Of a stretch of 64,000 bases of DNA, positions 6,881 through 42,525 are shown piece by piece; positions within the stretch are counted from its first letter, which is position 1, and every line of letters begins with the position of its first letter. The translations under genes were made by a program, and so were the position numbers. This DNA comes from Halobacteriovorax marinus SJ (GTDB lineage: Bacteria; Bdellovibrionota; Bacteriovoracia; Bacteriovoracales; Bacteriovoracaceae). Under the pieces are notes generated by a model. That model saw nothing but the letters and a program-made list of their open reading frames with translations, ran no database searches and was not told the origin of the DNA. The stretch covers positions 3,100,001-3,164,000 of the forward strand of contig NC_016620.1 of the NCBI RefSeq assembly GCF_000210915.2. Reading direction: 5' to 3'.

Positions 6881-6883
6881 CGA

Positions 6884-8629: not shown

Positions 8630-8704
8630 TTGAAATTAACACCCCAAATTACTCAGATAATCTTATTATGTACAATCAAGTATAACATAAAGCTTCGTAC
8701 CAGA

Positions 8705-8734: not shown

Positions 8735-8765
8735 TTTACTGTATTTAAAATAAGTTACAGGTCAA

Positions 8766-17657: not shown

Positions 17658-18887
17658 TTGAAGAATAAAGTTATTTGCACATTATTGTGGAATCATCTCT
17701 ACCTAAATAATGAAGGTTACTTTCTCCCATGCTGTAACTCTAACGAAAAAATAGAAGAGTTAAAGAAGAGATCTACTACTATTCTTGAAAATAAATCTCT
17801 CGATAACATTCACACTCTCGATTTTATCAAAGAGATTAGAACGGATATGTTAAATGGTAAGAAGAATATATTCTGCAACCAATGCTACGAAGCAGAAGAA
17901 AAGGGAATATTATCTTATAGAGAAATTAACAATGACCTTTTTAGTGATACGTACAAAGAACTCATCAGTGGTTTAGGAGATTTGAACGACAAGCTAAAGT
18001 TTGAGTACGTAGATCTTCGCCTTGGAAATACTTGTAACCTATCCTGTAGAATGTGTCCCGCAGAATCCAGCTCCAACTTAATTAAGGACCTAGAGGTACT
18101 TGAAGGAAGAACTTTTACAAGCGACTTCTTTAAAAATACAAATTGGTATAAAGAAGAGAATTTTTGGAATAATTTATTAACTCACAGTGATAGCTTTAAG
18201 AAAATTTATCTAGCTGGTGGCGAGCCACTATTAATAAATGAAACGTGGGACTTTCTTTTAAAGCTCATAGAGAAAGGTGTCTCTAAAAACATTACACTTT
18301 ACTATAGTACAAACTTAACAATTCTTCCTAAGAAGGCATATGAGATATGGCCACATTTCAAGAAGGTCAACCTCTCTCTTTCAATAGATGCAACAGAAGA
18401 GACATATGAATACATTAGATTTCCCGCGAAATGGTCAAAGGTAGATTTAAACCTTAAAGAATTAGATAAGAAATTCCATGAGCTAAATATAGAATCTGCA
18501 GTAGTCTACACTACAATACAAGCATATAATTACGCATCAATACCAAAACTAGTAGCCTACCTTAGTGAATTTTCTTTTATTGATCACTACCCGATTTTGA
18601 ATATACTCAGAAGCCCTGATTCACTGGCCATTGATAAAATCCCAAAAGAAATTAGACATAGAGAAGTGAGAGAACTTAAGAAAGTTCTATTTAAGGCAAG
18701 TACAGCTGATTATAAATCAAAGAAGTGGAAGCTTAATTTTGTCAACGAGCTCATTAGTTACATCGAGGAATTAAAAAGTGAAAGTACTTCTAATATAGAA
18801 GATTTCAAGAAATATACAGTTCACTTTGATAAGAGCCGTAAGCAATCAATTTTCAATATCATCCCTGAACTTAAGAATTATTTCTAA
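17658..18887 (+). CDS. Radical SAM protein with N-terminal twitch domain
   Basis: 409 residues from TTG, with GGAAGAGAG directly upstream supporting this start. An N-terminal Cys set (C7, C25-C26, C73, C76) precedes the SAM-cluster motif C126-NLS-C130-RM-C133. The auxiliary-cluster 'twitch' therefore comes first and the barrel second, as in N-terminal-twitch radical SAM proteins. LAGGEPLL is the GGE motif. It is cotranscribed with the SGNH hydrolase. Its 3' end overlaps the convergent DegT gene by 17 bases. The substrate is unknown. Confidence 0.85.
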   Translation: MKNKVICTLLWNHLYLNNEGYFLPCCNSNEKIEELKKRSTTILENKSLDNIHTLDFIKEIRTDMLNGKKNIFCNQCYEAEEKGILSYREINNDLFSDTYKELISGLGDLNDKLKFEYVDLRLGNTCNLSCRMCPAESSSNLIKDLEVLEGRTFTSDFFKNTNWYKEENFWNNLLTHSDSFKKIYLAGGEPLLINETWDFLLKLIEKGVSKNITLYYSTNLTILPKKAYEIWPHFKKVNLSLSIDATEETYEYIRFPAKWSKVDLNLKELDKKFHELNIESAVVYTTIQAYNYASIPKLVAYLSEFSFIDHYPILNILRSPDSLAIDKIPKEIRHREVRELKKVLFKASTADYKSKKWKLNFVNELISYIEELKSESTSNIEDFKKYTVHFDKSRKQSIFNIIPELKNYF

Positions 18888-23233: not shown

Positions 23234-24246
23234 ATTTAAAGAACCTTTGGAGATATTTTCATTTATCTATTAGAGTTGGTATCTACAAGACACCTTTTAC
23301 AAGCTTTATGATCTTTCTATATTTCATAGTAAATAGAGTTCAGATAAAGCTAAAAATGGTAAAGCTAATCCTCCCCCCACCAAATTTAGTTATCTCTCTT
23401 ACATCTAGATGCAATAAGACCTGTTCCTTCTGTCACTATGTCACTGAGCTCAACTCTCCCACTTATAAAGAGGATGAACTCACACTAGAGGGCTTCAAGA
23501 CACTTCTTCGCTCAAAGTCAGTACCTAATTATGGAAGAGTCTGTCTCTATGGAGGAGAGCCACTTTTAAATAAAGACTTCTTCTCTATTTTAAAATTGGC
23601 CAATAACAAAAAGTACTTAACGACGATTGTCACTAATGGACTGCTTGTTGGAAAGTACCTTGAAGAGCTCAAGAATTCAAAACTCAACCTAATGACTTTA
23701 AGTTATTACAAAGAGGATATTGAAAAGATTAGAGACTCTATAAAGAAAATATCGAGCTATATACCTATTAATGTAAGTTATGTTGTGTCGAATAATCGAC
23801 TAGATGAACTTAAAAATATGCTCGAATTCTCAAAAGATATAAATGCCGAGATGGTGACCATAGAGAATCTAAGAGAAAATGGCGTCACAAATGAAAAGAC
23901 GCTCTTTGAATCAAAAGAATTGAGGGCGATTCAGAAGTCCTTAAATGCTCAATATTCTGACCACTTTATTTTAAGGTGGTCAGGTTTTAACACTGCCCCA
24001 AAAGAGAATGAAAAGATTAGATGTATTGATTTCTGGGACACTATCTTCCTCAATGCTAAAGGTGAGGTTTCACCATGTTGCCAGTACCCACTCTCTTCCT
24101 ACAAGGGTAGCATTGAAAGTTCATGCTCCTCTATAAACTCTAAAGAAATGATCTCTCTTAGAAAAAGCTTTATTAACAATATTGCACCTGATGCCTGCAA
24201 GGGATGTCACTACCTCTATAAGTCAGACCCACTTTATAAGTCTTGA
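23230..24246 (+). CDS. Radical SAM/SPASM domain protein
   Basis: 338 residues. SAM motif C61-NKT-C65-SF-C68, then LYGGEPLL. The SPASM part has RCIDFWD, VSPCCQYP and CKGCHYLY near the end. The basic, hydrophobic first 45 residues resemble those of the gene at 21427 across the divergent promoter. It is translationally coupled to the GT2 gene by an ATGA overlap. It overlaps the convergent unknown gene by 13 bases. A role on a lipid-linked or membrane-bound sugar is plausible from the company it keeps. Confidence 0.87.
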   Translation: MNLKNLWRYFHLSIRVGIYKTPFTSFMIFLYFIVNRVQIKLKMVKLILPPPNLVISLTSRCNKTCSFCHYVTELNSPTYKEDELTLEGFKTLLRSKSVPNYGRVCLYGGEPLLNKDFFSILKLANNKKYLTTIVTNGLLVGKYLEELKNSKLNLMTLSYYKEDIEKIRDSIKKISSYIPINVSYVVSNNRLDELKNMLEFSKDINAEMVTIENLRENGVTNEKTLFESKELRAIQKSLNAQYSDHFILRWSGFNTAPKENEKIRCIDFWDTIFLNAKGEVSPCCQYPLSSYKGSIESSCSSINSKEMISLRKSFINNIAPDACKGCHYLYKSDPLYKS

Positions 24247-24848
24247 GACATTCTCTTTAGCTTCCACACAATAACATCACAAGAAATATACTTACGTCTC
24301 TCATTTAGAAAGCTTAAAAAATAAGTGTCACTTTTATTCACTATAGAGGCGCTCACTATTCTATCCCCTTCTAGTGGCCAATACTCAGTTAAAAACTCAC
24401 TACGGCTATAGAAGTCTCCCTCTTCATTAAATCTTCTCAGCTTCCCATGAGTGGTCTTCAAAAAAACACACTGCTTATCTCTTTCATAAGCAACCTCTTT
24501 TCCAAAGTCCAATCGAATAAATCCATCTTGATTACTGAGAAGAGGTAGAGAAACACTTGATGAGCAATCCACTGTATTCAAAGTTAGAAGTGCTCTTCTT
24601 GAATCAATCTCTATTTTTTTGGAAACAACATTATCAAAATCGAAAGAATAAGACGCAATTAACTCAACATCATCATTTTTATCATATCTCTCGAGAAGAG
24701 TTTTATTGTTATCAGTATCTGAAGCACAGTAAATCCTCTCTATACTGTAAGATCCACTAGGCAATTGACTACTAATATTCTTCACCTTCAACACATATAA
24801 AGTGAATAAAAGTAAAATTGAAATTGAGAAAATAACTCTCTTATTCAT
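24234..24848 (-). CDS. Membrane-anchored protein of unknown function
   Basis: The ATG at 24848 lies inside the end of the upstream gene (8-base overlap) and begins MNKRVIFSISILLLFTLYVL, one hydrophobic anchor. An in-frame start at 24878 would prepend ten unlikely residues. The 204-residue product has a periplasmic domain rich in beta strands with Cys in IYCASD, VDCSSS and KQCVFL. It is last in the run that contains the GT39-like and TMTC-like transferases, so it may assist glycan transfer. No family is recognised. Confidence 0.6.
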   Translation of the reverse strand: MNKRVIFSISILLLFTLYVLKVKNISSQLPSGSYSIERIYCASDTDNNKTLLERYDKNDDVELIASYSFDFDNVVSKKIEIDSRRALLTLNTVDCSSSVSLPLLSNQDGFIRLDFGKEVAYERDKQCVFLKTTHGKLRRFNEEGDFYSRSEFLTEYWPLEGDRIVSASIVNKSDTYFLSFLNERRKYISCDVIVWKLKRMSQDL

Positions 24849-26226
24849 ATCGCTCAAACGCCACAATATTATCTTCAACTACTAATGGCCTATACTTTAC
24901 GTTATCAGCTAAATTTAGATCACTCATCAAAATCTTCGCCTTACTGATATCATTAACTAAAATAATATCAGCATCTAATTTTGCCTCGTTAGATATATAA
25001 TTACATACATCACGTCCTAAATACATTTTAGAATATGGGCTCAAGACTGCTTCATACGAATCAATAACGACACACTGAACACTAGTACGATTATTAATAA
25101 CCTCTCTATCTTTAAGGTTTTTAAAGAAGTGCTTATAGTCTATTTTATATTCATAAAAGTCTCTATAAGGAGTAATGCGATAGGAACCAAATTGAACTGA
25201 TACAATTAAGAGAATAATCACTTTCCCAACATTAACATTCATTAAGCTTCTTATAAACTCAGCAATTACGAGTGTCATCAACGGATAGAAAACGACAAAA
25301 TATCTTTGAACAAAAATCGACATCAAAAATGTATCAACAAAGAGATAGAGGAAATAGCCGACCAAGGGAACACTTGAAAATACAATCAGCTTTCTGTTTG
25401 TAGTTTTATACTTAAAAAAGACAAAAATTAGGCTTATCAAATAAGTTATTAAGATTGGGTCTAAATAAGTGAAGTCCCAAGAGCTCTTTCCTATCCAAGA
25501 GACCTTTGATCTATAATTTATAAATTGAAAATATATTACGACGAGATAGACAAGAAGAGATACCAAGAAAAGTATATTGATTTTCTTCTCTAATAACTTC
25601 TTCCAGTGTCCACTAAATATCAACAATAAGAAACATGACGAAATATAGAAAATTGAAGTATTGTGAGTAAAGAGAATTGCTATTGAGAGAAAAGTAAAGG
25701 CATTGTAATCTCTACTCGATGAAGTACCTGCTATAACTTTTTTAAAAAAGTAAACATGAATCGAGCTTAGAAAAAGAAGTAATGGGTATGAACGAGACAT
25801 AGTCGAAGTCATGACTACCCAATCCAAATTACTAAAGAGAATGAAAATAATAGTAGCAATGAGCCAATCACTTACTTTTCGAACTTGTAGCGCCACAAGA
25901 ATACTGGCCAAACAACTTAGAATAATACTAGGAACCCTTATCCAGTAGTCATTATTTTCTGGTGATATAAACATCCACAGTTTAAGAATTGTATAATATA
26001 GTGGCTGCATAACTGCGCGATACACTTCAGCCCACATACCAGTGAAACTTTTCTCTATAAGTAACCAACTGAGTAGCTCATCACCATCAAGGGTATATTC
26101 GGTAATTATTTTAATTCTTGGGAAGATAAATAATGCACTAGATAGAATAATAAAAAATAGAGTTGTTACCTTTTCATTTGAAAAGAGTTCTCTGTTTTTT
26201 AAAAAGAATAATCTCACTCTTTCCAT
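24841..26226 (-). CDS. GT39/ArnT-like membrane glycosyltransferase
   Basis: 461 residues with about ten transmembrane helices. After helix 1 comes EYTLDGDELLSW; Asp49-Glu50 is the catalytic acidic pair of PMT/ArnT-type GT-C enzymes. MQPLYYTILKLW follows as the re-entrant segment. The last 80 residues are a small periplasmic tail. It would use a polyprenyl-phosphate sugar and act on the periplasmic side. It follows the TMTC-like gene by 18 bases. The acceptor could be lipid A, a glycan or a protein; the operon, with a pilin-like fibre nearby, makes protein worth testing. Confidence 0.75.
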   Translation of the reverse strand: MERVRLFFLKNRELFSNEKVTTLFFIILSSALFIFPRIKIITEYTLDGDELLSWLLIEKSFTGMWAEVYRAVMQPLYYTILKLWMFISPENNDYWIRVPSIILSCLASILVALQVRKVSDWLIATIIFILFSNLDWVVMTSTMSRSYPLLLFLSSIHVYFFKKVIAGTSSSRDYNAFTFLSIAILFTHNTSIFYISSCFLLLIFSGHWKKLLEKKINILFLVSLLVYLVVIYFQFINYRSKVSWIGKSSWDFTYLDPILITYLISLIFVFFKYKTTNRKLIVFSSVPLVGYFLYLFVDTFLMSIFVQRYFVVFYPLMTLVIAEFIRSLMNVNVGKVIILLIVSVQFGSYRITPYRDFYEYKIDYKHFFKNLKDREVINNRTSVQCVVIDSYEAVLSPYSKMYLGRDVCNYISNEAKLDADIILVNDISKAKILMSDLNLADNVKYRPLVVEDNIVAFERYE

Positions 26227-26244
26227 TTAAATATCCCACTTTCA

Positions 26245-27906
26245 TTAGTAGAGTTCTTCTAATTCTTTAATCTTAGTATCTATCTCTAAAATTCTTACTC
26301 TATTTCTTTCTTCTAACTCAGGGTTTTTGGAAACACTTGATTTTAGTACTTGTAAAATAAAGCGTCTCTCTGACTCAAGAAGGTCTCTATATATAACTAT
26401 AAATTGTCTACTATAGAGGTAGCGGCTAAAGTTTGTACTCATTAAAGAATTTGCTTTGCTGAAAATTCTATTTTCCACCAAAATTGAAATATAGTCAGAG
26501 AGGAGCGTCCAATCTTCAAAAAGTAACTCTCCAATCTCCTCTTTTAACAGTTCCGCTTTCTCAAGACTCCCCTGTCTTAAATAGACAGACATAAGTCCAA
26601 CATTACTACCAATAAAACTAGGGTCATTCTTCTTTGCCCTTAAGAAACTCTTCTCGGCCCCTTCAAGTCTTCCCTCTTTAACTTGTTGTTTACCTAAGAG
26701 AATATTGTAGAAGAATGAGCTCTCAGAACCATTATGATTAAAAACAGAAAACGAGTCCCACTTACCGACCTGAGAAAAGCTAGCCAAAATTAAAGTAACT
26801 GCCATTAAAGTAGATATATAACCCCTTATAGAAGGTTTAAATTTGTGGATGAGTATTTCAATAAGCCAACCAAGACCAATTAATGGCAAGTAGAAGTATC
26901 TCTCGGCCACCACTGATACAATTTGGTAGTGGAAATTAAGAACCCCAGAAATAGGTACATAGAATGAAAGAAAAATAACTAGTGCGATTCCAAGCTGTTT
27001 TGAAAATCTCTTTCTAAAAATAAAACTTAAACAAAGAGTTGTTAAAGTTCCTATTCCAATAAGGTAATCCCAAATTGATAACTTAAAATTGTATACATCT
27101 TTTAAGCCTGACATTTCATAACCAAAGTCTGAAAGAAAGAATATTCTTTTAAAATAGAAGATAGAATTAAAGGTTATTAACTTTAAATAGCTTCCAATTC
27201 CACCACCAGTCATTTTGATAATAAGGTCATTATAGAAGTAAATAACACCGATGATTAGGCAGAGAATTAAGAAGCCATTCTCTTTTAAAACCTCTTTAAA
27301 ATTTTTCTTGTGATGGTAATAATCGATTCCCATGACAATTATTGGCAGAAGAAAAATAGTGGGCTTTGAAAGTAGCCCTAAAATAAAGAGAATAAGTATG
27401 GCGACAGACTTCTTATAATCAAACTTTATATTAATAGAAGTCCAAATACCGAGTAGTACAAAGAATCCCGCGAGTAAGCCCCTTAGAGATGATATCCAAA
27501 CGACACTCTCTACTTGAATCGGGTGAAATGCAAAAATCATCGCAGTAATAATTCCCGCCTTACAACTTCTCTCACGCTCAGAAGAGAGTTGAGAGATTAT
27601 GAAATAGACCAGAATACTATTAATAGAGTGAAATACAATATTTGCTATTCTAAAGAGCTCTGTATTATGAACACCACCAACTGCACCTATCACTTGCCAG
27701 ATATTATAGGCCAGTGGTGTTTTTGAATTTGTCCAAAACCATAGAATATTTGATAAGTTTAATTGAATATGATCGTTCTCATAGATATGAAAAGCATCAT
27801 CTAAAATGAAGTAAGAAAAATGTATGGCCTGAGAATAGACGGCCATACAGATAGTAAATGTTATTAGAAAAAATTTTAAGAATTTATGACTTAATAAATT
27901 TTTCAC
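26245..27906 (-). CDS. TMTC-like protein O-mannosyltransferase with TPR tail
   Basis: 553 residues. The membrane part (1-385) follows bacterial and eukaryotic TMTC proteins: an acidic pair in FILDDAFHIYEN (Asp36-Asp37) after helix 1, then NTELFRIANIVFHSINSILVY, and AFHPIQVESVVWISSLRGLLA matching the family's HP.H.E.V.W...R.D.L motif. Residues about 395-480 look like TPR helices (GKQQVKEGRLEGAEKSFLRAK). TMTC enzymes O-mannosylate secreted proteins in animals; bacterial members are little studied. It starts 6 bases after the S74 gene, so it shares that transcript. The protein acceptor is inferred, not shown. Confidence 0.75.
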   Translation of the reverse strand: MKNLLSHKFLKFFLITFTICMAVYSQAIHFSYFILDDAFHIYENDHIQLNLSNILWFWTNSKTPLAYNIWQVIGAVGGVHNTELFRIANIVFHSINSILVYFIISQLSSERERSCKAGIITAMIFAFHPIQVESVVWISSLRGLLAGFFVLLGIWTSINIKFDYKKSVAILILFILGLLSKPTIFLLPIIVMGIDYYHHKKNFKEVLKENGFLILCLIIGVIYFYNDLIIKMTGGGIGSYLKLITFNSIFYFKRIFFLSDFGYEMSGLKDVYNFKLSIWDYLIGIGTLTTLCLSFIFRKRFSKQLGIALVIFLSFYVPISGVLNFHYQIVSVVAERYFYLPLIGLGWLIEILIHKFKPSIRGYISTLMAVTLILASFSQVGKWDSFSVFNHNGSESSFFYNILLGKQQVKEGRLEGAEKSFLRAKKNDPSFIGSNVGLMSVYLRQGSLEKAELLKEEIGELLFEDWTLLSDYISILVENRIFSKANSLMSTNFSRYLYSRQFIVIYRDLLESERRFILQVLKSSVSKNPELEERNRVRILEIDTKIKELEELY

Positions 27907-27912
27907 TCAAGC

Positions 27913-28350
27913 TTATTTTACCTTCTTCAGTAAAACTTCAATCTGAGCTTGCTGGTCTTCAACCTTCTTATTCAGTTCTTTTACAGCTTCTAGGAGAATT
28001 GGAGTTAGCATTGAGTAATTCACGTACTTCATTCCCTTCTCGTCTTCAGCAACGGCTTGTGGAAATACACTCTCCAACTCTTGGGCCATTACACCAATCT
28101 GCTCTCTTTGCGAGAATTTATTTTCAGGAAATTCTTCTGTCTTATAATTATAAGTATATGCATTTAACGATGCGATTCCCTTCATTGCGTCACTAAGAGG
28201 ATTGATATTCTCTTTGAATCTAACATCAGAGCCTGCGAAAACATCAATATAAATACTTTCATTGAGAACTTCTTCTTCAATTTCTTGAAGGTTGAACTCC
28301 TTAAGCTCTCCAAAATCGTATTCTTTTTTCTTATCGTTATCAGTGCTCAT
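27913..28350 (-). CDS. Free-standing S74 intramolecular-chaperone domain protein
   Basis: 145 residues. The C-terminal 100 match the peptidase S74 / tail-fibre chaperone domain: S41-D-V-R-F-K46-ENI, NAYTYNYK, REQIGVMAQELESVFPQAV and a C-terminal coiled coil (LLEAVKELNKKVEDQQ). Family members normally end phage tail spikes and cut themselves off at the conserved Ser. Here only 40 acidic residues precede that Ser and there is no fibre or signal peptide. GAGG precedes the ATG. It has its own promoter just downstream of the PqqD-like gene and is followed by the TMTC-like gene. It may act in trans or release its N-terminal peptide. Confidence 0.85.
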   Translation of the reverse strand: MSTDNDKKKEYDFGELKEFNLQEIEEEVLNESIYIDVFAGSDVRFKENINPLSDAMKGIASLNAYTYNYKTEEFPENKFSQREQIGVMAQELESVFPQAVAEDEKGMKYVNYSMLTPILLEAVKELNKKVEDQQAQIEVLLKKVK

Positions 28351-28381
28351 ATAACCTCATCATATTTAAGTTATTTTCTAA

Positions 28382-28409
28382 AGTATAACATAACTCTTTG
28401 CCCTCACAA
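28382..28409 (-). promoter_or_regulatory. Promoter upstream of the S74 gene
   Basis: On the minus strand TTGTGA (28404-28409) and TATACT (28382-28387) are 16 bases apart. The predicted start near 28375 leaves a leader of about 25 bases containing GAGG before the ATG at 28350. The S74/TMTC/GT39 genes can therefore be transcribed separately from radical SAM-PqqD. Confidence 0.42.
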
Positions 28410-28449
28410 CGGGTAAAAATCAAGAGTTTTTATATAAGTTATCGTATTT

Positions 28450-28743
28450 TTAAGCAGTTACAGCTAAATTCTTATCAACTAATTGAGTAATAAGCTTACT
28501 CACATCACCCAAGAGAACTTCTCTAGTGACATTATATTCGCCTTCTAATTGGTCAAGAACCTCTTTTACGCTCTTCCCATCGCTCAAAAGATCCCACACC
28601 TCAGCGGCCACTCCATTAATTTTAAAGAAAGAAGATGAATCATCCATTTTCATCAAAACAATAATATCATTTGCATTCTTTCTAGAAACAACGTCATCAC
28701 ATTTTTGTAGCTTTAAGCCTTCATTGATTTGAAGCTCAGACAT
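28450..28743 (-). CDS. PqqD-like peptide-carrier (RRE) protein
   Basis: 97 residues from ATG 28743, chosen over an in-frame TTG at 28755 because GGAGAGG lies 5 bases upstream of the ATG. The domain follows the PqqD pattern: three strands (LQKCDDVVSRK, DIIVLMKM, SSSFFKIN) then GVAAEVWDLLSDGKSVKEVLDQL and a C-terminal helix. PqqD-type RRE domains hand precursor peptides to radical SAM enzymes. Its start overlaps the upstream radical SAM stop by 8 bases, as expected for such a pair. No short precursor-peptide ORF was found beside it, so the client is unknown. Confidence 0.8.
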   Translation of the reverse strand: MSELQINEGLKLQKCDDVVSRKNANDIIVLMKMDDSSSFFKINGVAAEVWDLLSDGKSVKEVLDQLEGEYNVTREVLLGDVSKLITQLVDKNLAVTA

Positions 28744-30115
28744 AGTCCTCTCCAATAGTTAATTTTTTTACAAAGTAGTAAGATTTCTTACAGTTTAACA
28801 TAAAATCTTTGTACTCTGGAAATGCTGTTAAAAAGTCTTTATTGTATCTTTTATCAAACTGAGTCACAAAAGTATATAAGTCAGCCCTATTCTGGTTCTT
28901 CTGATCCATTCTCTCTTTTGAGACAATCCAATGATATACTCTTTTAAATTTCTCAAGCTCATATTCGGAGAACTCGTTTCCACCAAACTCTGATACTCGC
29001 CCCCCCATAAACTCGAGACTTTCTTTAATATAAGAATGTAAATCTTCAGTGACCATATTGGCCCTTAAGTATCGCGGGTGATTTAAATAGGATATATCTA
29101 AAATAACTCGACCATAGTCTTTTTTTAGTTCGAGTATATCTTGAAGAAATAATTTAAATTTTGGAATAGAGTAAACTCCAAAAGTACAATTTATAATGAC
29201 ATCAACACCGAGCTCTTCTTTAAACTTTCTAATATTTGAGAGCATCTTATCGTAATCAAGTCCCTCCCTAATGTATTCTGCTTGTTCCTTATATGCATCT
29301 ACACTAGTAAAGAGTTCAAATTTCTTAATATTTCCCTTCTGTAAAACTGGCTTTAACTTCTTTATAAATCTATCAATGACAACATCCTTAACGGAGAGAT
29401 TTGTATTGATTGCCAAGGTCAAATCCTTAGATTCATTCTCAAGTAAGTAATCTAAAACTTTAAAAGTATTCACAGATAAAAGAGGCTCTCCACCGGTAAT
29501 TCTCAGAGTGTGAAGTCCTTCGATTATAGTTGGTAACCATTTCCAAAAAGCGATGACGTAGGGATTAGTAGTTTCATCATCAGATATTTTCTCATTACGA
29601 GGCAGTCGATGATCAATCAATTCCTCATAAGGGCCAAACTTTTTTATTTCTTGCTCGATACGACTTGAGACATCTGCAATACAATAGCCACAAGCTAAGT
29701 TGCACCCCTTATCAAACATCACCTCAACATATGTAGGAGCAACATCATCTTCGTAGTGAGAGTTCGCTATTCTATCTTTGTGAGGGTAAGCCCAATGGTC
29801 TAGAGATTTAATCAGTCGATCTGATTTCTCTGGGCCAGAGCTATCTTCAATTTGCCAACAATATTCACACTCTGAAGGCCTGCGACCTTCAAGCATTTCT
29901 TTTCGCTTCTCTTTCTTAAATTTCGTATTGTGTAGAGCCGAAGGATTTTGCTCAAGTTCTTCTAAGGGGATTAAATGTCTTCGAGGATGGTGGCAACTAT
30001 GGTTCGTTCCGTGAACGAGATCAATAGTCACTTGAAGCCACTTTGCAAGACAAAAGCTTTCAGACACCTCATTTATTGAGTCAATACGCTTTTTTCTGTC
30101 CTTCAATGATTCCAA
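28736..30115 (-). CDS. Radical SAM protein with N-terminal twitch, paired with PqqD
   Basis: 459 residues from TTG 30115, supported by GAGGG 8 bases upstream. N-terminal cluster Cys (C22, C41, C83, C86) precede the SAM motif C138-NLA-C142-GY-C145. RITGGEPLL is the GGE motif and FELFTSVDAYKE a later barrel strand. The order twitch-then-barrel matches the genes at 17658 and 32721. It is translationally coupled to the PqqD-like gene. It is divergent from the prepilin-fibre gene across 194 bases. Likely role: modification of a protein or peptide delivered by PqqD; the client is inferred only. Confidence 0.85.
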   Translation of the reverse strand: MESLKDRKKRIDSINEVSESFCLAKWLQVTIDLVHGTNHSCHHPRRHLIPLEELEQNPSALHNTKFKKEKRKEMLEGRRPSECEYCWQIEDSSGPEKSDRLIKSLDHWAYPHKDRIANSHYEDDVAPTYVEVMFDKGCNLACGYCIADVSSRIEQEIKKFGPYEELIDHRLPRNEKISDDETTNPYVIAFWKWLPTIIEGLHTLRITGGEPLLSVNTFKVLDYLLENESKDLTLAINTNLSVKDVVIDRFIKKLKPVLQKGNIKKFELFTSVDAYKEQAEYIREGLDYDKMLSNIRKFKEELGVDVIINCTFGVYSIPKFKLFLQDILELKKDYGRVILDISYLNHPRYLRANMVTEDLHSYIKESLEFMGGRVSEFGGNEFSEYELEKFKRVYHWIVSKERMDQKNQNRADLYTFVTQFDKRYNKDFLTAFPEYKDFMLNCKKSYYFVKKLTIGEDYV

Positions 30116-30132
30116 TTCTTTAACCCTCTAGA

Positions 30133-30165
30133 TGCCTTAAATTTAAGGCATATTCAAAATATGCC
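30133..30165. repeat. Two overlapping inverted repeats in the divergent intergenic region
   Basis: A perfect 18-base palindrome (30133-30150, TGCC...GGCA) shares its last four bases with a second hairpin, GGCATATT/AATATGCC with a 3-base loop (30147-30165). Only one of the two can form at a time. In the leftward radical SAM transcript the pair ends about 6 bases before the Shine-Dalgarno. It could be an operator for both divergent genes or a translational switch. Confidence 0.55.
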
Positions 30166-30252
30166 GATATTGTTTATGAAACTAACTAATCAGTAATTTT
30201 AAATAATTAGAAGGATTTTTTTTCCTTAAGTATTAAAAATTTAGTTAGTCCA

Positions 30253-30258
30253 TATAAT
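30253..30258 (+). promoter_or_regulatory. -10 box for the prepilin-fibre gene
   Basis: A perfect TATAAT preceded by a very AT-rich tract with an 8-T run. A start near 30265 would leave a leader of about 45 bases. No good -35 stands out, so an activator or another sigma factor may be involved. Confidence 0.4.
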
Positions 30259-30309
30259 GTAACACATAGATATTTATTATACAGGCTAATCTACCGGTGG
30301 CGAAAGATT

Positions 30310-32724
30310 ATGAAAAAGAATTTTAGATTTTTAAATTCAAAAGGTTTTACTCTCGCAGAGATTATGGTGGCAACAGGTATGCTTGCTGTTATCTCTCTAG
30401 GCGTTATGCAATTGATGTCCAATATGAATAGAGGACAGAAAGAGTTTGAGCAAAACGCGGAGATTAGATCAATCCTGAATAATATTGAAGTCTCTCTTCA
30501 AGATACTAATACCTGTAACTACAGTTTAGTTGTCAATAAATACATAGACAGTGGTAACACCGGTTTTTATAAAATTGACGACATTGCAGCTGCAAATATA
30601 AATACTTATTCTCAGGATGTTCTTGTAGATAGAATTATAAATCCAAATAAAAGTTTCTTTACGGTTCCTGCAGATGAAGGCAATATTTTAGGTCTTAATT
30701 TGGCAGATGATATTACAGTCGCCAGAATGTGTAATGAAGACTACACAGGGGGAATGAGTGCTGATGAACTAAGAGAATATGGATGTATGATTGGTAACGA
30801 TAAAGGCAGAATTCTTATAAGAAGAATGTGGCTCGGTACAGACTCAGGTGGAAACACTTCACTCTTTATAACATTTATCTCTGGTGGATTAATTAATGTC
30901 TTTACAAGTGACCCATCAACAGACCTACAAGTCTACTATAATGCTCTTAGAGCTAGTGACCCTGAAGCTGCTGCAAAACTCTCAGGTTCGTTTGGCTCAC
31001 CTATTGTGACTAAATTTATAAGAATAAGCTTAAGTAGTGTATCTGCTGATCAAGTTGCTCCAATGAATAATATGACAGCTGTATCAAGAATCACTGACCC
31101 TGCCGGATCGCTAGCAGAAGGTGATGTTACAAATTGTTTTACAAACTTAACAGATACTATTCAAGCAGCCTGTGAGAACTTTGGTGGTAATTACCATGAC
31201 ATAGATGGTTCATGTAGAGCTCTTAGAATTAGAAGTGATAATTCTAGTAATGACGGTGAAGCTGGATACGACGCTTCTTTTATTCCAAGTATCCCAACAA
31301 ATGCTGTATCACCAGGTGGTCCAAGATCAACGGCCATTGCAACAGAAGGACACGTCTATGTTGGACCTCTTAATAACACCGGCGCAGCAGAATCAGTTGG
31401 TGGTAACTTATGGGCTTCAGGTGTAGGTATTATTGGTTCTCCAAGTTTTAATGTCGAACCTGATGATGGAGGAGATAACCAAGGTGAGCTTTGGACTCAG
31501 TCTCATATTAGAGTAGGCTCCAAGGCTTCTGGAACAGCGGGTGATCACGGAAATATTTACGCCGATGGTGGGCTCGTTCTCGGTACAGCAACTACGGACC
31601 CTGCTGATAATTCAGGTCATATTTACTCAAATGGTGGTATCGCACTTGGTACAACTTCGGGAACTGCGCTTACTGGACCTCATATGAAAACAAGTGGTGG
31701 CCTCTCTCTAGGTACCGCTAACCAAAGTCCAGACGATGGACACGCCATGATTTCCGGTGGTGCTAAAATTGGTTCACTAGCAGCAGGTGCAGCTATGTCT
31801 GATGATGACCTTGCTGTTACTGGAGGTATTTCTGTTGGTGCAAGTGGATCAAATCCATACTCTGCCGACCCAGATGATGGTTCAGTTTATGCGCAAAACT
31901 CATACTACGGTGCGGGCTCTCTACACCTTGGAAGCCAAGCAGTTAATCCTAGTGCAGGAGCTGGACATATAAGAATTTCAGGGGCACTGAATGTAGGAGC
32001 GACTCAGACTCAGACAGACGCAGGGACTGCTCATATTCAAGGAATAGCCTACTCATACGGTCTCGATCCACTAGAAGATAATATCAATGCCCTTACCACT
32101 ATTGAATGGGTGAAAGAGAGAATCGCAAGAACACTCGCACCAACAGGATCATCAGCAGCACAAATCGCTGAAGATATTCTGAGCAATGCGGTTAAGGATA
32201 CAAAGTCTGGTATTGTCGCGATCCAAAAAGATGCTTGTGAGAACTTCTATGTGAAAAATAATAATCAAAACTATGTAGCAGGCTCGTGGAAATCTGGAAC
32301 AAAGAGATGCGAATTCAACAATAACGCCAGAGACTGTAGTATTGATGGGCAGTGTACAAACGTCTATGCTAACAATGCTGTTATCTCCGACAATTACATG
32401 AGAGCGACTGGCTATATAAGAGCGGGAAGTTATGTACGTGCAGATACGTATCTTGTAACTGGTACATATGCACAGATTGGTTCTTATTTAAATGTTGGTG
32501 GAAATGTAACAGCAACTGGTAGAGTCCATTCGAGTAACTATGTCTTTGCGACTAATTACTTACAAACGAATGGATATGCTAGAGCTGCAAGATTCTGTAT
32601 AAACGGTACATCAGGTGCATCTTGTATCACAAAAGTTAAATCAAATGTTTGTGGGAACACGCAGAAAGTAGTCAGTTGGCAAAATGGTCACGTTATTTGT
32701 ATTAACGAAGCAAGACACTATTAA
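30310..32724 (+). CDS. Prepilin fused to a repeat-rich, tail-fibre-like shaft
   Basis: 804 residues. The N-terminus is a classic type IV prepilin: short basic leader, cleavage Gly12/Phe13, Glu at mature position 5 and a hydrophobic helix (FTLAEIMVATGMLAVISL). A globular Cys-containing region follows to about residue 330. Residues 347-578 hold about eight imperfect repeats of 20-30 residues around G-H-I-x-x-x-G-G-L-x-L-G-T. Residues 696-761 are eleven consecutive hexapeptides, most starting with Tyr, as in beta-helical phage fibres. The end is Cys-rich (FCINGTSGASC, VCGN, VICINE). It is probably a minor pilin carrying a long fibre or adhesin. It is flanked by radical SAM genes on both sides. 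Confidence 0.85.
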   Translation: MKKNFRFLNSKGFTLAEIMVATGMLAVISLGVMQLMSNMNRGQKEFEQNAEIRSILNNIEVSLQDTNTCNYSLVVNKYIDSGNTGFYKIDDIAAANINTYSQDVLVDRIINPNKSFFTVPADEGNILGLNLADDITVARMCNEDYTGGMSADELREYGCMIGNDKGRILIRRMWLGTDSGGNTSLFITFISGGLINVFTSDPSTDLQVYYNALRASDPEAAAKLSGSFGSPIVTKFIRISLSSVSADQVAPMNNMTAVSRITDPAGSLAEGDVTNCFTNLTDTIQAACENFGGNYHDIDGSCRALRIRSDNSSNDGEAGYDASFIPSIPTNAVSPGGPRSTAIATEGHVYVGPLNNTGAAESVGGNLWASGVGIIGSPSFNVEPDDGGDNQGELWTQSHIRVGSKASGTAGDHGNIYADGGLVLGTATTDPADNSGHIYSNGGIALGTTSGTALTGPHMKTSGGLSLGTANQSPDDGHAMISGGAKIGSLAAGAAMSDDDLAVTGGISVGASGSNPYSADPDDGSVYAQNSYYGAGSLHLGSQAVNPSAGAGHIRISGALNVGATQTQTDAGTAHIQGIAYSYGLDPLEDNINALTTIEWVKERIARTLAPTGSSAAQIAEDILSNAVKDTKSGIVAIQKDACENFYVKNNNQNYVAGSWKSGTKRCEFNNNARDCSIDGQCTNVYANNAVISDNYMRATGYIRAGSYVRADTYLVTGTYAQIGSYLNVGGNVTATGRVHSSNYVFATNYLQTNGYARAARFCINGTSGASCITKVKSNVCGNTQKVVSWQNGHVICINEARHY
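31348..32043 (+). repeat. In-frame shaft repeats of the prepilin-fibre gene
   Basis: About eight degenerate coding repeats (residues 347-578) built on G-[NH]-[IVM]-x-[SA]-x-G-G-[LIA]-x-[LIV]-G-[TSA], with Asp/Pro/Gly-rich linkers of variable length. The linkers contain DPxD or PDDG turns. Such a regular pattern suggests stacked beta hairpins forming an extended stalk. Confidence 0.7.
32395..32592 (+). repeat. Eleven in-frame hexapeptide repeats
   Basis: Residues 696-761 read as uninterrupted six-residue units such as YMRATG, YIRAGS, YVRADT, YLVTGT, YAQIGS, YLNVGG, NVTATG. Tyr opens eight or more units and small residues (Gly, Ser, Thr, Ala) close them. The exact period and lack of gaps indicate a beta-helix or triple-stranded beta-prism shaft. 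Confidence 0.75.
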
Positions 32725-33842
32725 AATCTTAGAAATGGCACTCTCTTTTGAAGAGAGTGCTTTATTGCATTAAATAATCTAAATCTTCTCTTGGGTCTTC
32801 CTATAAAAGAGCTTAAGTTTCCTCCATCTACAATGGTATCCCTCATTCTCTTATCTTTACACACCTCTACAAATTCATCATACAAAGGGTGTTCACTTAA
32901 ATAAACAGCTCTCTTTAAAAACTCTTCATTTGAAAATGTTCCCCAGTTAATAATTCTCTGAAAGAAAACAAAGTCTGCCTCAAACCTTTTTCCAAGATCG
33001 ACAAATTGTGGCATCTCTCTAAAGTTATGATCTTGAACAACAAAATCATATTTTACATAGGGTATTTGACCACTTTTTCGAAGCTTCTTAATAAACTCTA
33101 AATTCCTAAGCAATCGATCCCAGTCACCTCCCCTACGAACAATTTCATAAGTAGCAGAACTTGCAGCATCAATTGAGACACAGAAGCCTTCAATTCTTCC
33201 GTGAATATTAGAGAGTTCGCTCCAAACTCTTTCACTAAAGAGTAGCCCATTCGTCACAATTTGAATCTTTAAGTTTGGATTCTTAGAAAAGTTTAAATTC
33301 TTTAAAAGATTTTTAAAGTGTTGACTCGCAAAAGGGTCTCCTGAAGAGCAAAAAAGAAGTCTTTCTGTATGTGTTCCACTTACTTCGACAATCTCATCCC
33401 CGATTTTACTAAATAGCTCTTGAGCGTCTTGACCATTATGAGAAATATAATCAACGCGACAACTTGGACAAGATAAATTACAAGTCTGATCATAAGATAG
33501 ATTTATAATCTTCGGGCTTCTATCTAAAACAACTTGCTGATCTTGAATAATCTTCTTTAAGTATTTATCACTGACCGTATATTTATCAGGAAGCTCCCCT
33601 GCTTGAATAATCGGACACTGCTCTTTTACACAATACTCAAATGTACCCTCATGAATGGAGCGGCGAATGTCTTGAATAGACTGTGAATTCCATGTTTCTA
33701 AAAGTGTATCGTTTTTTAGATTACCAATCTCTTTTGGTAATTGATTAGGACAACAAGCATGACACAAAACTCCCCTTTCCTGAGGATACCCTATCTCAAG
33801 AAACTCAAAAGGCTTTGCACAAAACTTATTCTTTAGATCCAT
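32721..33842 (-). CDS. Radical SAM protein with N-terminal SPASM/twitch region
   Basis: 373 residues. N-terminal Cys C8, C27, C30-C31, C71 and C76, with the SPASM-like phrase IGNLKNDTLLETWNS, precede the SAM motif C121-NLS-C125-PS-C128. FCSSGDPF replaces the usual GGEP. It is monocistronic, with a leaderless-type promoter. Its stop overlaps the convergent prepilin-fibre gene by 4 bases, and a terminator hairpin lies within its last codons. Its position on the far side of the fibre gene from the other twitch-type radical SAM gene makes the fibre or its glycan a candidate substrate. Confidence 0.83.
   Translation of the reverse strand: MDLKNKFCAKPFEFLEIGYPQERGVLCHACCPNQLPKEIGNLKNDTLLETWNSQSIQDIRRSIHEGTFEYCVKEQCPIIQAGELPDKYTVSDKYLKKIIQDQQVVLDRSPKIINLSYDQTCNLSCPSCRVDYISHNGQDAQELFSKIGDEIVEVSGTHTERLLFCSSGDPFASQHFKNLLKNLNFSKNPNLKIQIVTNGLLFSERVWSELSNIHGRIEGFCVSIDAASSATYEIVRRGGDWDRLLRNLEFIKKLRKSGQIPYVKYDFVVQDHNFREMPQFVDLGKRFEADFVFFQRIINWGTFSNEEFLKRAVYLSEHPLYDEFVEVCKDKRMRDTIVDGGNLSSFIGRPKRRFRLFNAIKHSLQKRVPFLRF
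32738..32764 (+). terminator. Intrinsic terminator of the prepilin-fibre gene
   Basis: GCACTCTCTT (32738-32747) pairs perfectly with AAGAGAGTGC (32751-32760) across a 3-base loop, and TTTATT follows. It lies inside the last codons of the convergent radical SAM gene. It is one of the few clear stem-loop terminators in the window. Confidence 0.75.
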
Positions 33843-36358: not shown

Positions 36359-37627
36359 ATGAGCAAAGTAGTATTAATTAGACGAAAAAATGAGTCCGAC
36401 TGGATAAGCTGTCAAAGCATTACCTCAAACCTTGAGGCTAGTTACAAATCATTTATAAAAGATATTATTATTATCGATATAGAGAGTGATTTTAATAAAT
36501 ATGACTATTATAAAAAAGCAGAGGAAATACTCTCTCACAATCCAGCTAATATTATTTTTATAGATCACACTCCTCATCCACATCAATTGATAAAGTCTTT
36601 ATTTTATCTTAGTAAGGTTGAGCTTAACTTCACATTTCATATTTTCGGTGATTTTACTTTGCAAAGTTCTCATTGGATCGGTTTAGAAGATATTCTCAAA
36701 CAAACAAATAATAAGTTCATTTGTGCCTCTCATAAACAAACCAATCTTTTGAAGAATTTGGTTGATGGTTTAGAGGAAAATCTTTTTACTGTTCCATTTC
36801 CTGTCGATACCAACATATTTAATTACAAAGAAAAAGAAATCTCTAATGAGAAATTCAGATTTTTATATACTGGACGACTTTCTGATCAGAAAAATATAAT
36901 TGAATTAATTACTCTCTTTAATCACTTTAATCTCAATATAAATTCAAATACTGAATTAATTATATCTGGGCCATATGATGATCTAGGAATCCCATTTCTT
37001 GGCAAGAAAATGAAAAGTGGTGCATATGGGCTCACAGTTGAGAGTTTAGTTGAAAGACTTAATAATCCAAATATTCAAATTATTGGAAACTTGAATCACG
37101 ATGATTTAGTCAACTACTACCAAAGTTCAGATGCCTTTATAAGCATTAGTACCCATAATGACGAAGACTATGGAATGTCTCCAGCCGAAGCCCTTTGCTC
37201 AGGTCTTCCGTGCTTACTTACAAACTGGGCAGGATATACGAGCTTTAAACTATATTGCCCAAGCTCGGTCTATTTAAGTCCTGTTGATATACAAAATCAT
37301 AAAAATCTGCCTAATAAGAGTGATATTATAAAGAAGATGACGTTCCTGGCTTCATCTAAGCTTAGCTCAAAACAACGCTTTGATTTATCCACGACTGCTC
37401 AAAGTACCTTAGGCATTAGCTCTGTAACCGAATCTCTTAGTGAAATCGCTGAGAAGGACTTTACTTTAGGAAAAAACCTTTCTTTCACTGAGCGCTTTAA
37501 GGCTCTTTCAAGCTCACATATTTATTCTCCAGATACTCCCTTTTTAAAGGCCAGTAATGGTGAATATAATTCACTTTATAAAGATGTCTACTGGCCATAC
37601 TATGAAGAGGAAATAAATGAAAAATAG
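36359..37627 (+). CDS. Family 4 (GT-B) glycosyltransferase
   Basis: 422 residues. The second half has the GT4 donor site: FLYTGRLSDQKNI, ELIISGPYDDLG, IIGNLNHDDLVNYYQSSDAFIS and EDYGMSPAEALCSGLP with the conserved Glu pair. It resembles each half of the tandem enzyme at 43262 (same GPYDDLG/GKEDDLG insert), so they are relatives. The start codon lies just after an AT-rich -10-like region with no Shine-Dalgarno. It is the first of three rightward genes, overlapping the next by 11 bases. Role: adding a sugar to a surface glycan in the cytoplasm. Confidence 0.85.
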   Translation: MSKVVLIRRKNESDWISCQSITSNLEASYKSFIKDIIIIDIESDFNKYDYYKKAEEILSHNPANIIFIDHTPHPHQLIKSLFYLSKVELNFTFHIFGDFTLQSSHWIGLEDILKQTNNKFICASHKQTNLLKNLVDGLEENLFTVPFPVDTNIFNYKEKEISNEKFRFLYTGRLSDQKNIIELITLFNHFNLNINSNTELIISGPYDDLGIPFLGKKMKSGAYGLTVESLVERLNNPNIQIIGNLNHDDLVNYYQSSDAFISISTHNDEDYGMSPAEALCSGLPCLLTNWAGYTSFKLYCPSSVYLSPVDIQNHKNLPNKSDIIKKMTFLASSKLSSKQRFDLSTTAQSTLGISSVTESLSEIAEKDFTLGKNLSFTERFKALSSSHIYSPDTPFLKASNGEYNSLYKDVYWPYYEEEINEK

Positions 37628-38612
37628 AATTGAACTCATTCATAGAGATTACCAAGAATATACAGAGTTAATTAATAATAAGAAGAAGTGGCTTGAGCCT
37701 GATTATTTAGATAAGCAATACACTCACTATAGCCAACCTCATACTCAAGAGTATCATAATCCAATAGGTGCTCCCCTCTTCTTAGTTACGATTAAAAAAC
37801 TTGAGTGGCTCAATATGTTTCCGCTCATATTTGTGAGGGATGGTATTACATCAATTGCTCATTTCTTTTACAGGCATCCTACTCCAAAGAATATAATTTC
37901 AACACTTGCAATTCCAAAAGAAGCTGAATCAGTTATACCAGAAGCTTGGATCGATCATTGCATTACATATTCTACAAAGAGATTTAAAAGAAATGAAAAG
38001 GCTCATAAAGAAAATATTGTCCTAGTATCTTCAATTAGTGAAAACCTCTATTGTCTAAAAGAGCTAAAGGAAAAACTTTCAGATTTAAAGAATAAGTTCA
38101 CTCTTCCTGTCTCCGCAATTGTATTTGATAATATCAAGCTAGGTGAAGAATTTAGAATGGACTATAATCTTCATAATGCAGATTTTTACAGAACCCTTTT
38201 TGAAATATTTGGTAGTGAACTCACTATTAAAAATTGGTTCTCTGCAAAAGACATAGACTATTCAAATTCATATTTCTTTGAAACACATAGAAACAATTTA
38301 AACTTCTCAGATAGTTTTGTTACTCACCTTCTATTATCTCAAGGGGCTCACCCTTTGAATAACCGCTACCAAGAAGATGATTTCAAAGACAATTGCAAGA
38401 GAATATCTCGGTATCATTTTTTAAAATTTGAAGTGGCAACTTTAAACAAAGAATCGAATAAGCTTTGGTCATTTATTAAAAACTCAGAAGAGTTACTTCT
38501 CTCTGGAGAGAAACTTTTAAACAGATCAATGCAAGATTTTGAAGAGATTAACCTATGTACTCCTGAGTTTGAAAATATAATTAAAGACTATATTGATGAC
38601 AAGACTTTATAA
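37617..38612 (+). CDS. Unknown protein in glycosyltransferase operon
   Basis: 331 residues, no signal or membrane helix. GAGGA precedes the ATG. It is rich in aromatic residues and contains VRDGITSIAHFFYRHP, WIDHCITYSTKRF and NIVLVSSISENLYCLKELK. The alternating strands and helices could form an alpha/beta enzyme. It overlaps both neighbours (11 and 17 bases), so it is surely expressed with the GT4 gene. I recognise no family. Confidence 0.6.
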   Translation: MKNRIELIHRDYQEYTELINNKKKWLEPDYLDKQYTHYSQPHTQEYHNPIGAPLFLVTIKKLEWLNMFPLIFVRDGITSIAHFFYRHPTPKNIISTLAIPKEAESVIPEAWIDHCITYSTKRFKRNEKAHKENIVLVSSISENLYCLKELKEKLSDLKNKFTLPVSAIVFDNIKLGEEFRMDYNLHNADFYRTLFEIFGSELTIKNWFSAKDIDYSNSYFFETHRNNLNFSDSFVTHLLLSQGAHPLNNRYQEDDFKDNCKRISRYHFLKFEVATLNKESNKLWSFIKNSEELLLSGEKLLNRSMQDFEEINLCTPEFENIIKDYIDDKTL

Positions 38613-39573
38613 AATTCTCTCTAAACTTCCCTATCCATTACAAGAACTTCCATACTCATTATGTTGGATAGTAACAAAGACTTATTTAAAAAATAATCAA
38701 GTAGAATTGTGGCCAAGAAATAGTTATGTATCTAAACGTATTGTCGCTGCCCTAAGTGATTTAGACCTAACTATAATTGTTAGTAAAGGTGGATTAGAAG
38801 AGAAAGTTATAAGAAAATATAATCATTTAAAGATAATCTTTCCATTTCTTGGTGAAATCAATATGTATCCGGCCAAGGAAGTTCAAGACTTTATCCCTAT
38901 AGCAAATAAGTATGAACTTGAAAGAGATCCCCGTCTATGTAAAGACTATGGCATTTCAAAAGAAGAAAATATTTATGAAAAAATTGTTTTCTTGTGCAAA
39001 TTAATAGAATCAGATCAAGAGAATTTAAAAAACAACCCATTATATAGAAAGAAGAAATGGGAAAAACATCTAACAGACCTAGGATTAAGTTCAGAAATAG
39101 ATTTCGAAAGTCTTATTCAATTACTTAATTCACAATGTAGTGAAATAGGTATTGATGCATCAAACTTCCTCAACCACTATTACCAAGAGAATAGAACTCA
39201 AAAAACTAGTTGTGATAACTTCTATAGAGAATGTAAGAATATAAAAGAGTATATACTGCTCTATCCATTTCGCTGGATAGGAAGTTCATTAACGTGTGAG
39301 AGCTTCTTTCACGATATTGAATTAATTAAAAGCTTCACAAAACACGAACTCTCACTACTTGAAGCTCAGCTCAATTGGGAAATCTGGGGACTCTTCTCAC
39401 AGTATTTACATAATTTACATAAAGCAACACTACATACGCACCTAGAAAATATAAGACAAGTAATGGATACAAATGAAGCTCTACAAAACTCATCTGTATA
39501 TAATAAGCTAAATGAACTTAGAGCTCTCCACGAAAACTCGCTACTCCAGTATCTAGAAAACGATAGGCTTTAA
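38596..39573 (+). CDS. Possible nucleotidyltransferase-fold protein
   Basis: 325 residues from ATG 38596 (an in-frame TTG lies one codon earlier). SKRIVAALSDLDLTIIVSKGG looks like the DxD site of polymerase-beta-like nucleotidyltransferases (S-D-x-D-x with strands either side), followed by a third acidic strand in GEINMYPAKE. The rest is helical. No GSxx motif is clear, so the assignment is tentative. It is last in the GT4 operon. Its end overlaps the convergent ABC ATPase gene by 56 bases, the longest such overlap in the window. Confidence 0.5.
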   Translation: MTRLYKILSKLPYPLQELPYSLCWIVTKTYLKNNQVELWPRNSYVSKRIVAALSDLDLTIIVSKGGLEEKVIRKYNHLKIIFPFLGEINMYPAKEVQDFIPIANKYELERDPRLCKDYGISKEENIYEKIVFLCKLIESDQENLKNNPLYRKKKWEKHLTDLGLSSEIDFESLIQLLNSQCSEIGIDASNFLNHYYQENRTQKTSCDNFYRECKNIKEYILLYPFRWIGSSLTCESFFHDIELIKSFTKHELSLLEAQLNWEIWGLFSQYLHNLHKATLHTHLENIRQVMDTNEALQNSSVYNKLNELRALHENSLLQYLENDRL

Positions 39574-40297
39574 TTCCTTTTTCAACATCACCAAAGAACT
39601 GAATCTTCCCTTTATCTAACAGCATCACTTTATTACAAACGTCTCTTATTTGATCCAGAGTATGTGAAACTAGTATCGTGGCTCCTGAAGACTTTATAAC
39701 TTCAGTTATTCTCTTTCTAATTTTTTCTTGAAAGAATAAATCAGCTCCATCAAATACTTCATCTAATATAATGAGATCACTTGGCCTCGCTGAAATTACA
39801 GACAAGCAAAGTCTTGCCTGCATTCCTTTTGAGTATTTTTGAAATGGTGTATCCAAGAACTCGCCTAATTCACTAAATTCAAGAGCATCTTCTAAAATCT
39901 CTCTTTGTTCTTTGACTGAAACTTTTGGATAAATAAACTTAACCAATAAGGAAGCATTCTCTCTTCCCGTAAGCTCAGGAAGGACTCCGACTGTGGTATT
40001 GAAAATAGAGCGACATTCACCCTTTAACTTTACCTCTCCACTAGAAGGTTCCAGTATTCCAGAAATAATTCTGCACAATGTAGTCTTTCCAGTTCCATTG
40101 ACACCTAGAATCCCTATGATATCACCCTTATGGACTTTAAAATCTAATCCTCTTAGCACATGAATTGTATTCTTTGTTGTAGATTGAAGCGTAAGCCTTT
40201 TGATGAATACTTCTCTTAGCGAAGAGTTATGAAAAGACTGAGTATCATATGTCATATTTAGACCAGAGACCTCTAAAATCTCATCAGAGTTTAACAT
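39518..40297 (-). CDS. ABC exporter ATPase (Wzt/KpsT/TagH type)
   Basis: 259 residues. Walker A is GVNGTGKTTL, the signature YSKGMQARL, Walker B LIILDEVFDG and the switch His in VSHTLDQI. The sequence matches polysaccharide-export ATPases of the Wzt/KpsT group, here without a C-terminal carbohydrate-binding domain, so the substrate is selected elsewhere. It partners the permease gene, which it overlaps by 14 bases. It is the last gene of a seven-gene leftward operon and likely exports the glycan or glycoconjugate made by that operon. Confidence 0.9.
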   Translation of the reverse strand: MLNSDEILEVSGLNMTYDTQSFHNSSLREVFIKRLTLQSTTKNTIHVLRGLDFKVHKGDIIGILGVNGTGKTTLCRIISGILEPSSGEVKLKGECRSIFNTTVGVLPELTGRENASLLVKFIYPKVSVKEQREILEDALEFSELGEFLDTPFQKYSKGMQARLCLSVISARPSDLIILDEVFDGADLFFQEKIRKRITEVIKSSGATILVSHTLDQIRDVCNKVMLLDKGKIQFFGDVEKGIKAYRFLDTGVASFRGEL

Positions 40298-42523: not shown

Positions 42524-42525
42524 AG

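Follow-up and report, generated by a model that had tools for sequence, protein, structure and literature searches.

Genes at the locus

We analyzed a 64,000-nt stretch of DNA from the marine predator Halobacteriovorax marinus SJ (NC_016620.1, positions 3,100,001 to 3,164,000; hereafter the window), which lies in a genome of 3.44 Mb in two pieces. The genes in question encode a short protein with an S74 domain, a PqqD-like protein and radical S-adenosylmethionine (SAM) enzymes. They probably belong to a variant system for ribosomally synthesized and post-translationally modified peptides (RiPPs). A preliminary description had brought together eight genes at this locus around a prepilin-like fiber. 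All eight are complete open reading frames, and the identities it gave to the S74 protein, the PqqD-like protein and the radical SAM enzyme at 28736-30115, which has an N-terminal twitch domain (N-twitch), were borne out by matches over the cut-offs. The central features, with positions in the window, are:

27913-28350, minus strand: short S74 protein, of a family of ~145 residues built of an N-terminal peptide and an S74 domain (PF13884, E = 5e-17, over the cut-off)
28231-28350, minus strand: leader-like N-terminal peptide, residues 1-40 (alignments, conservation, strand and helix in two structural models)
27913-28230, minus strand: S74 chaperone domain of the self-cleaving kind (motif SDVRFK, i.e. 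SDxxxK) and a C-terminal coiled-coil-like helix
28450-28755, minus strand: PqqD-like RiPP recognition element (RRE) (PF05402, E = 6e-15, over the cut-off); the ATG start is probably at 28743
28736-30115, minus strand: N-twitch radical SAM protein, rSAM1 (NF033640, E = 6e-93, over the cut-off)
41408-42556, minus strand: second N-twitch radical SAM protein (PF13186 followed by PF04055; alignment)

Six tightly spaced minus-strand genes, namely rSAM1, PqqD, S74 and three downstream genes (TMTC-like, PMT-like and one for a 214-aa protein), are divergent from the fiber gene. Distributions were counted in 369 Bdellovibrionota genomes, 31 with and 338 without a short S74 gene. Neighbors within ~10 kb of the short S74 gene were counted in 30 loci, where contig ends make the counts lower bounds. 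Loci and genomes are numbered with L and G.

A family of short S74 proteins with a conserved peptide

When 95 genomes of the family were searched, 21 short S74 proteins scored at ~128 bits or more. Below them there was a gap down to 85 bits, and then came mostly the S74 ends of long fibers. Judged by their sequences, the short S74 proteins are a family distinct from the fiber-embedded S74 domains. A scan of 84,980 species (one genome each) with strict patterns found the family in at least 27 loci, and those with informative titles were all from Bdellovibrionota-type organisms. The genome of locus L001 (G000:C1:2168950-2169132) also encodes one protein of 1932 aa that ends in an S74 domain preceded by fiber-like sequence; it is probably a MAT-type fiber.

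Alignment revealed the peptide consensus YxFG(G/E)(I/L)xE(F/Y)(N/S)LxxIExE(V/I)LN(D/E)SxYLDVFAG directly N-terminal to the SDxxxK motif. The peptide of the window has the box FNLQ at residues 19-22 and ends in YIDVFAG; most relatives have FNLE, and YLDVFAG is near-invariant in the family. Among 26 sequences, the mean pairwise identity was 73% for residues 11-40 and 86% for residues 31-40, and 41-43% for the S74 domain. Synonymous divergence was equal throughout, with 55-60% of identical residues having different codons in all parts of the protein. Therefore, the difference in conservation reflects selection at the protein level. The fiber-embedded S74 domains of the same phylum follow quite different sequence and the conserved peptide is absent there, so the peptide is not simply a requirement of S74 cleavage.

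Read from its sequence, the short S74 protein has no visible signal peptide and thus should be cytosolic. When the leader was used to search the genome, no convincing second protein with the same N-terminal peptide emerged (second hit E = 0.35). In one short S74 protein (L046:9740-10249) the start of the leader is duplicated: the protein is extended at its N-terminus (MTDKKQAYYFGGIEK...YDFGGIEE), and the extension bears another YxFGGI motif.

The Lys of SDxxxK was present in 26 of 26 short proteins and the Ser in 25. In the remaining one (L083:9995-10420, DVFAGCDPLFK) the catalytic Ser is replaced by Cys, so that a possible nucleophile is retained. Trimerization and self-cleavage of the SDxxxK type have been shown in the Bdellovibrio S74 protein Bd3182, where a Ser-to-Ala change blocks the cleavage (PMC10769870). 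By analogy, the short S74 protein is predicted to cleave itself before Ser41, which would free residues 1-40.

Co-inheritance and fusion with PqqD

With a threshold of at least 85 bits, the PqqD clade was present in 29 of the 31 short-S74 genomes and in 2 of the 338 others (Fisher P = 2e-38, uncorrected for relatedness). All 28 pairs on the same contig were within 17.2 kb of each other, and 16 of them within 500 bp. In L086 and L087 PqqD shares the strand of S74 and lies 32 and 15 bp upstream of it, respectively. It also adjoins S74 in L060, L080 and L081, despite the different content of the surrounding gene island. In three divergent genomes (L085, L088 and L089) PqqD, a linker, the peptide and S74 form a single protein. 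Linkage and fusion thus place a precursor candidate with a conserved leader-like segment beside the recognition gene.

An rSAM1 orthologue (matches >600 bits; the next match had 552) was found in 24 of the 369 genomes, of which 23 are among the 31 with a short S74 gene and one is among the 338 others. In L045-L048, as in the window, rSAM1 is next to PqqD. PqqD, short S74 and radical SAM genes recur jointly across the phylum, above chance. The conservation of this set bears out the preliminary description, which knew of no described system of the kind. We found no paper joining S74 to a RiPP or to PqqD in a literature search that had most subscription journals outside its coverage.

Structural models of the fusions

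AlphaFold2 models were made of two natural fusions, L088 and L085 (predicted local distance difference test scores of 88 and 87). The alignment for L088 contained rows of stand-alone PqqD misplaced under the peptide, and L085 was modelled without any such rows. In the L088 model the peptide formed a strand, IKEFN (122-126), and a helix, LEQIETEVLSE (127-137). The L085 model again had a strand, LKSFN (122-126), and a helix at 127-137.

The PqqD part of both models was best matched by the TbiB1 RRE-leader complexes (Z 11.4 for L088 and 10.6 for L085). Together with the PF05402 match, this indicates that a recognition domain of the RiPP type is present in the cluster. The S74 part matched the MyRF ICA domain (Z 9.2 for L088 and 10.5 for L085) and the endosialidase chaperone (Z 8.0 for L088 and 7.3 for L085). 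The L088 model also matched the complex of NisB with the NisA leader (Z 8.6, root-mean-square deviation 4.1, 103 aligned residues), and the matched region, model residues 5-129, extended into the strand of the peptide. Leaders bind strand beta3 of the RRE as an added strand, and the lanthipeptide box is FxLD (2025 survey, PMC12710340). The conserved peptide is predicted from the models to form a strand-helix unit like those of leader peptides on RREs, with PqqD as the putative partner of the strand.

Radical SAM genes

In 11 of the 30 loci the gene directly downstream of S74, and on its strand, is the orthologue of the 41408-42556 gene; the gaps range from -8 to 63 bp. Two further radical SAM genes belong to the surroundings:

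42526-43275, minus strand: radical SAM/SPASM gene (PF04055 and PF13186), in 12 of the 30 loci
32721-33842, minus strand: N-twitch radical SAM gene beside the fiber gene (Radical_SAM E = 7e-11, preceded on its N-terminal side by a SPASM/twitch stretch); a homologue occurs in only 2-3 of the 30 loci, so it is not a conserved member

The window encodes at least four N-twitch radical SAM proteins, a further one of which is at 17658-18887 (NF033640, 361 bits).

Proposed mechanism

We consider it probable that PqqD and the short S74 protein are paired in a RiPP-like system, the former as recognition element and the latter as its dedicated substrate, with S74 as a self-cleaving follower. The family, its conservation, the co-inheritance, the fusions and the operons were computed directly, and as a RiPP-like variant the pair of precursor and recognition element is well supported; the chemistry is so far based on context. 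The short S74 protein would be a cytosolic precursor, with a leader bearing the lanthipeptide-like FNLE/FNLQ box and the S74 follower at its C-terminus. In the modelled docking step, the leader would bind to PqqD through an additional strand and a helix, and PqqD would present it to one or more twitch radical SAM enzymes (28736-30115, 41408-42556). As judged from characterized relatives, these enzymes would alter the peptide, and the S74 domain, probably trimeric, would cut between Gly40 and Ser41 and free an altered peptide of ~40 residues. The near-invariant SxYLDVFAG is the likely site of alteration. We take the aromatic-X-Asp spacing in YLDVF to resemble known three-residue cyclophane sites, and it is one possible target. 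More speculatively, the glycosyltransferases, carbamoyltransferase, signal-peptidase-like protein and Wzm/Wzt-type exporter encoded nearby might add sugar to the peptide and/or export it, or the product might enter a surface glycan. The prepilin fiber may be an optional partner or client.

Several observations weigh against this interpretation. In the fold comparison the strand partner was read from matches to other structures rather than from coordinates, so leader docking stays at the level of a model. NisB was not listed for the L085 model, which is evidence neither way. All the radical SAM proteins fell below every curated NCBIfam equivalog cut-off for peptide maturases, and in its twitch part the 41408 family is similar to the aminocyclitol enzyme BtrN; the action of these enzymes on the peptide is therefore read from context. 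In the window the 41408 gene is 13 kb from the S74 gene. One genome (G067) has a short S74 gene and no detected PqqD, and two (G128 and G114) have PqqD and no detected short S74. The L089 fusion has lost the YxFG motif. Finally, the ABC exporter of the cluster is of the polysaccharide (Wzm/Wzt) kind.

Surrounding glycosyltransferase and exporter genes

Glycosyltransferases, a NodU-like carbamoyltransferase, a Wzm/Wzt-like exporter, an S26-like protein and two conserved proteins were found around the short S74 gene in at least half of the 30 loci, and DegT aminotransferases were also among the cluster genes. In the window these genes are:

36359-37627, plus strand: glycosyltransferase (PF00534, Glycos_transf_1), in 17 of the 30 loci
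37617-38612, plus strand: conserved protein of no assigned family, with no convincing match in Pfam, NCBIfam or the Protein Data Bank (PDB), in 18 of the 30 loci
38593-39573, plus strand: conserved protein with an invariant SDxD motif (alignment), in 21 of the 30 loci, with no convincing match in the same three databases; its sequence is possibly nucleotidyltransferase-like
39518-40297, minus strand: ABC exporter ATPase, Wzt/TagH-like (PF00005; NF050108 E = 1e-46, under the equivalog cut-off)
40284-41060, minus strand: ABC-2 permease, Wzm-like (PF01061; NF050109 E = 2e-15, under the cut-off; PDB matches to transport permeases including TarG)
41050-41424, minus strand: small S26 signal-peptidase-like protein (TIGR02228 E = 3e-13, just under the cut-off; SMxP box conserved), in 15 of the 30 loci
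43262-46042, minus strand: large glycosyltransferase with two Glycos_transf_1 stretches (PF00534), in 19 of the 30 loci
46039-47754, minus strand: NodU-like carbamoyltransferase (PF16861 and PF02543), in 18 of the 30 loci

In the S26-like protein, the usual position of the catalytic Lys appears from alignment to be His, as in the SipW/Sec11 enzymes. Surroundings so rich in glycosyltransferase and exporter genes suggest, as a speculation, that the product may be glycosylated or associated with a surface glycan.

These genes also give rise to another explanation, in which PqqD, the peptide and S74 form a trimeric scaffold that carries the acceptor or primer for a glycan, the Wzm/Wzt-like exporter moves the glycan out and the radical SAM enzymes act on sugars. 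The abundance of the genes listed above, together with the DegT aminotransferases, agrees with it, and so do the BtrN-like twitch part and the near-invariant peptide, which suggests a single fixed role. However, RRE domains are known as the peptide-presenting parts of RiPP pathways (PMC12710340), and among the 30 loci the commonest direct downstream partner of S74 was a radical SAM gene rather than a glycosyltransferase. We regard the scaffold explanation as unlikely.

Elsewhere in the window, four proteins of 570-592 aa with no Pfam match are encoded close together at 5168-12867, beside GDSL-like proteins. At 55144-58376 the genes for EPSP synthase, 3-dehydroquinate synthase and chorismate synthase stand together and adjoin nucleotide-sugar genes.

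The prepilin fiber and the rest of the operon

The genes that the preliminary description had emphasized are:

30310-32724, plus strand: prepilin with a repetitive fiber-like part, an accessory neighbor (GFTLAEIMVA motif; family alignment)
26245-27906, minus strand: multi-pass TMTC-like protein in the same operon, an occasional member (no Pfam match; 8 of the 30 loci)
24841-26226, minus strand: PMT_2-like membrane protein in the same operon, not conserved (PMT_2 E = 5e-4, 20.7 bits against a cut-off of 26.1; 0 of the 30 loci)
24234-24878, minus strand: 214-aa protein at the operon end, not conserved (no Pfam match; 1 of the 30 loci)

The fiber gene has the canonical prepilin motif GFTLAEIMVA, common to its homologues, although the curated models gave matches just under their cut-offs (N_methyl E = 0.0012, TIGR02532 E = 0.017). 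Fiber-family matches were counted from 83 bits upward with a profile made from cluster-side fibers, which is hence biased. Among the 18 placeable short-S74 genomes with a fiber, 15 have it within 20 kb of short S74, PqqD or rSAM1, one at ~30 kb and two on other contigs; seven of the 15 linked fibers are outside the search profile. The fiber also occurs in ~10 of 30 control genomes without the system, and it is missing from many genomes with the system. Since the fiber is often beside the system and yet each occurs alone, the linkage is real but the dependence is not. The fiber is an optional neighbor, present beside the system in 15 of the 31 genomes. In another genome (G131:C45:4511-7053) a fiber-family prepilin, PqqD and a radical SAM gene are side by side, and the short S74 gene is on another contig.

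In the preliminary description, PqqD and the radical SAM enzymes were thought to modify the fiber and the S74 protein to fold it in trans. In favor of this, the fiber stands beside the system far above chance and in several families, and in the window, L045, L047 and L048 its gene and rSAM1 are divergent. However, PqqD is co-inherited with and fused to the S74 protein, which carries the leader-like peptide, and not to the fiber. When the genome was searched with the S74 leader, the fiber was not hit, and the system and the fiber each occur without the other; the fiber was rejected as a PqqD substrate on the grounds of this optional linkage and the leader search. The fiber part of a type IV prepilin folds outside the inner membrane, where an S74 protein with no visible signal peptide would not be expected. 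Moreover, S74 domains of the phylum work in cis, on the fiber whose end they form (PMC10769870). A role of the S74 protein as a generic chaperone in trans was also ruled out by the conservation, the fusions and the lack of a visible signal peptide. We find modification and folding of the fiber by these genes very unlikely.

The two putative mannosyltransferases, described as TMTC-like and GT39-like, are not conserved members of the system, and their labels are weak: the frequencies and matches listed above show that neither is a conserved core gene, that the PMT_2 match is below the cut-off and that the TMTC-like gene matches no Pfam family.

A further explanation is that independent genes merely share a polysaccharide island and are co-inherited as a block. 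The other island genes do recur at similar frequency. However, the three fusions, the PqqD-S74 adjacency in loci of differing island content and the peptide-specific conservation make this highly improbable. An anti-phage defense role was rejected, as the radical SAM enzymes gave weak viperin-type matches only, and so was a phage origin of the PqqD/S74 unit, as no viral contig carries a relative of it; the S74 domain itself resembles many phage tail families.

Comparison with known systems

The RiPP-like system proposed here resembles those RiPP systems in which the RRE is a separate protein of the PqqD type (lasso peptide B1/E proteins, for instance TbiB1, and PqqD) in that a stand-alone PqqD-fold RRE is encoded beside a small precursor with a leader box. 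As in the pyrroloquinoline quinone system, radical SAM enzymes are encoded nearby. It differs from them in the S74 end of ~100 residues on the precursor, in the fusion of RRE and precursor in three genomes, and in radical SAM enzymes that are of the N-twitch type and below the peptide-maturase cut-offs. The class I lanthipeptide system (NisB-NisA, box FNLD) shares the FNL(E/Q) box at the modelled strand, and its NisB-NisA complex was matched by one model. Comparatively, no LanB or LanC match was found among the cluster genes scanned, and the tailoring enzymes are different.

The S74 fold and the SDxxxK motif are shared with the S74 proteins of phage tail fibers, MyRF and the Bdellovibrio MAT fibers. 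However, a 40-residue peptide rather than a beta-helical fiber precedes the cut here, no signal peptide is visible and the gene is linked to those for PqqD and radical SAM proteins. A MAT fiber consists of a signal peptide, a beta domain of ~130 residues and a fiber before the S74 domain (PMC10769870); the short S74 protein, with only ~40 residues before that domain, does not fit this description. rSAM1 is far above the cut-off of the NF033640 twitch radical SAM family. The name of that family gives no function, whereas here one of its clades is tied to PqqD and S74.

The chances seem to us evenly balanced that this is a new RiPP-like class, made by predators and related bacteria, in which a phage-type S74 domain acts as the follower, perhaps trimerizes the precursor, and frees a peptide that is altered by radical SAM enzymes and possibly bears sugar, with the recognition element joined to the precursor in some species. 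If this is true, S74 domains would gain a role away from fibers, and the precursor would have the means of its cleavage built in and, in some species, the recognition element as well. The YLDVFAG-SD junction would be a handle for finding further such systems, and twitch radical SAM proteins that have so far been named by domain only would get a testable substrate. Marine bacterial predators would then make a conserved, altered peptide.

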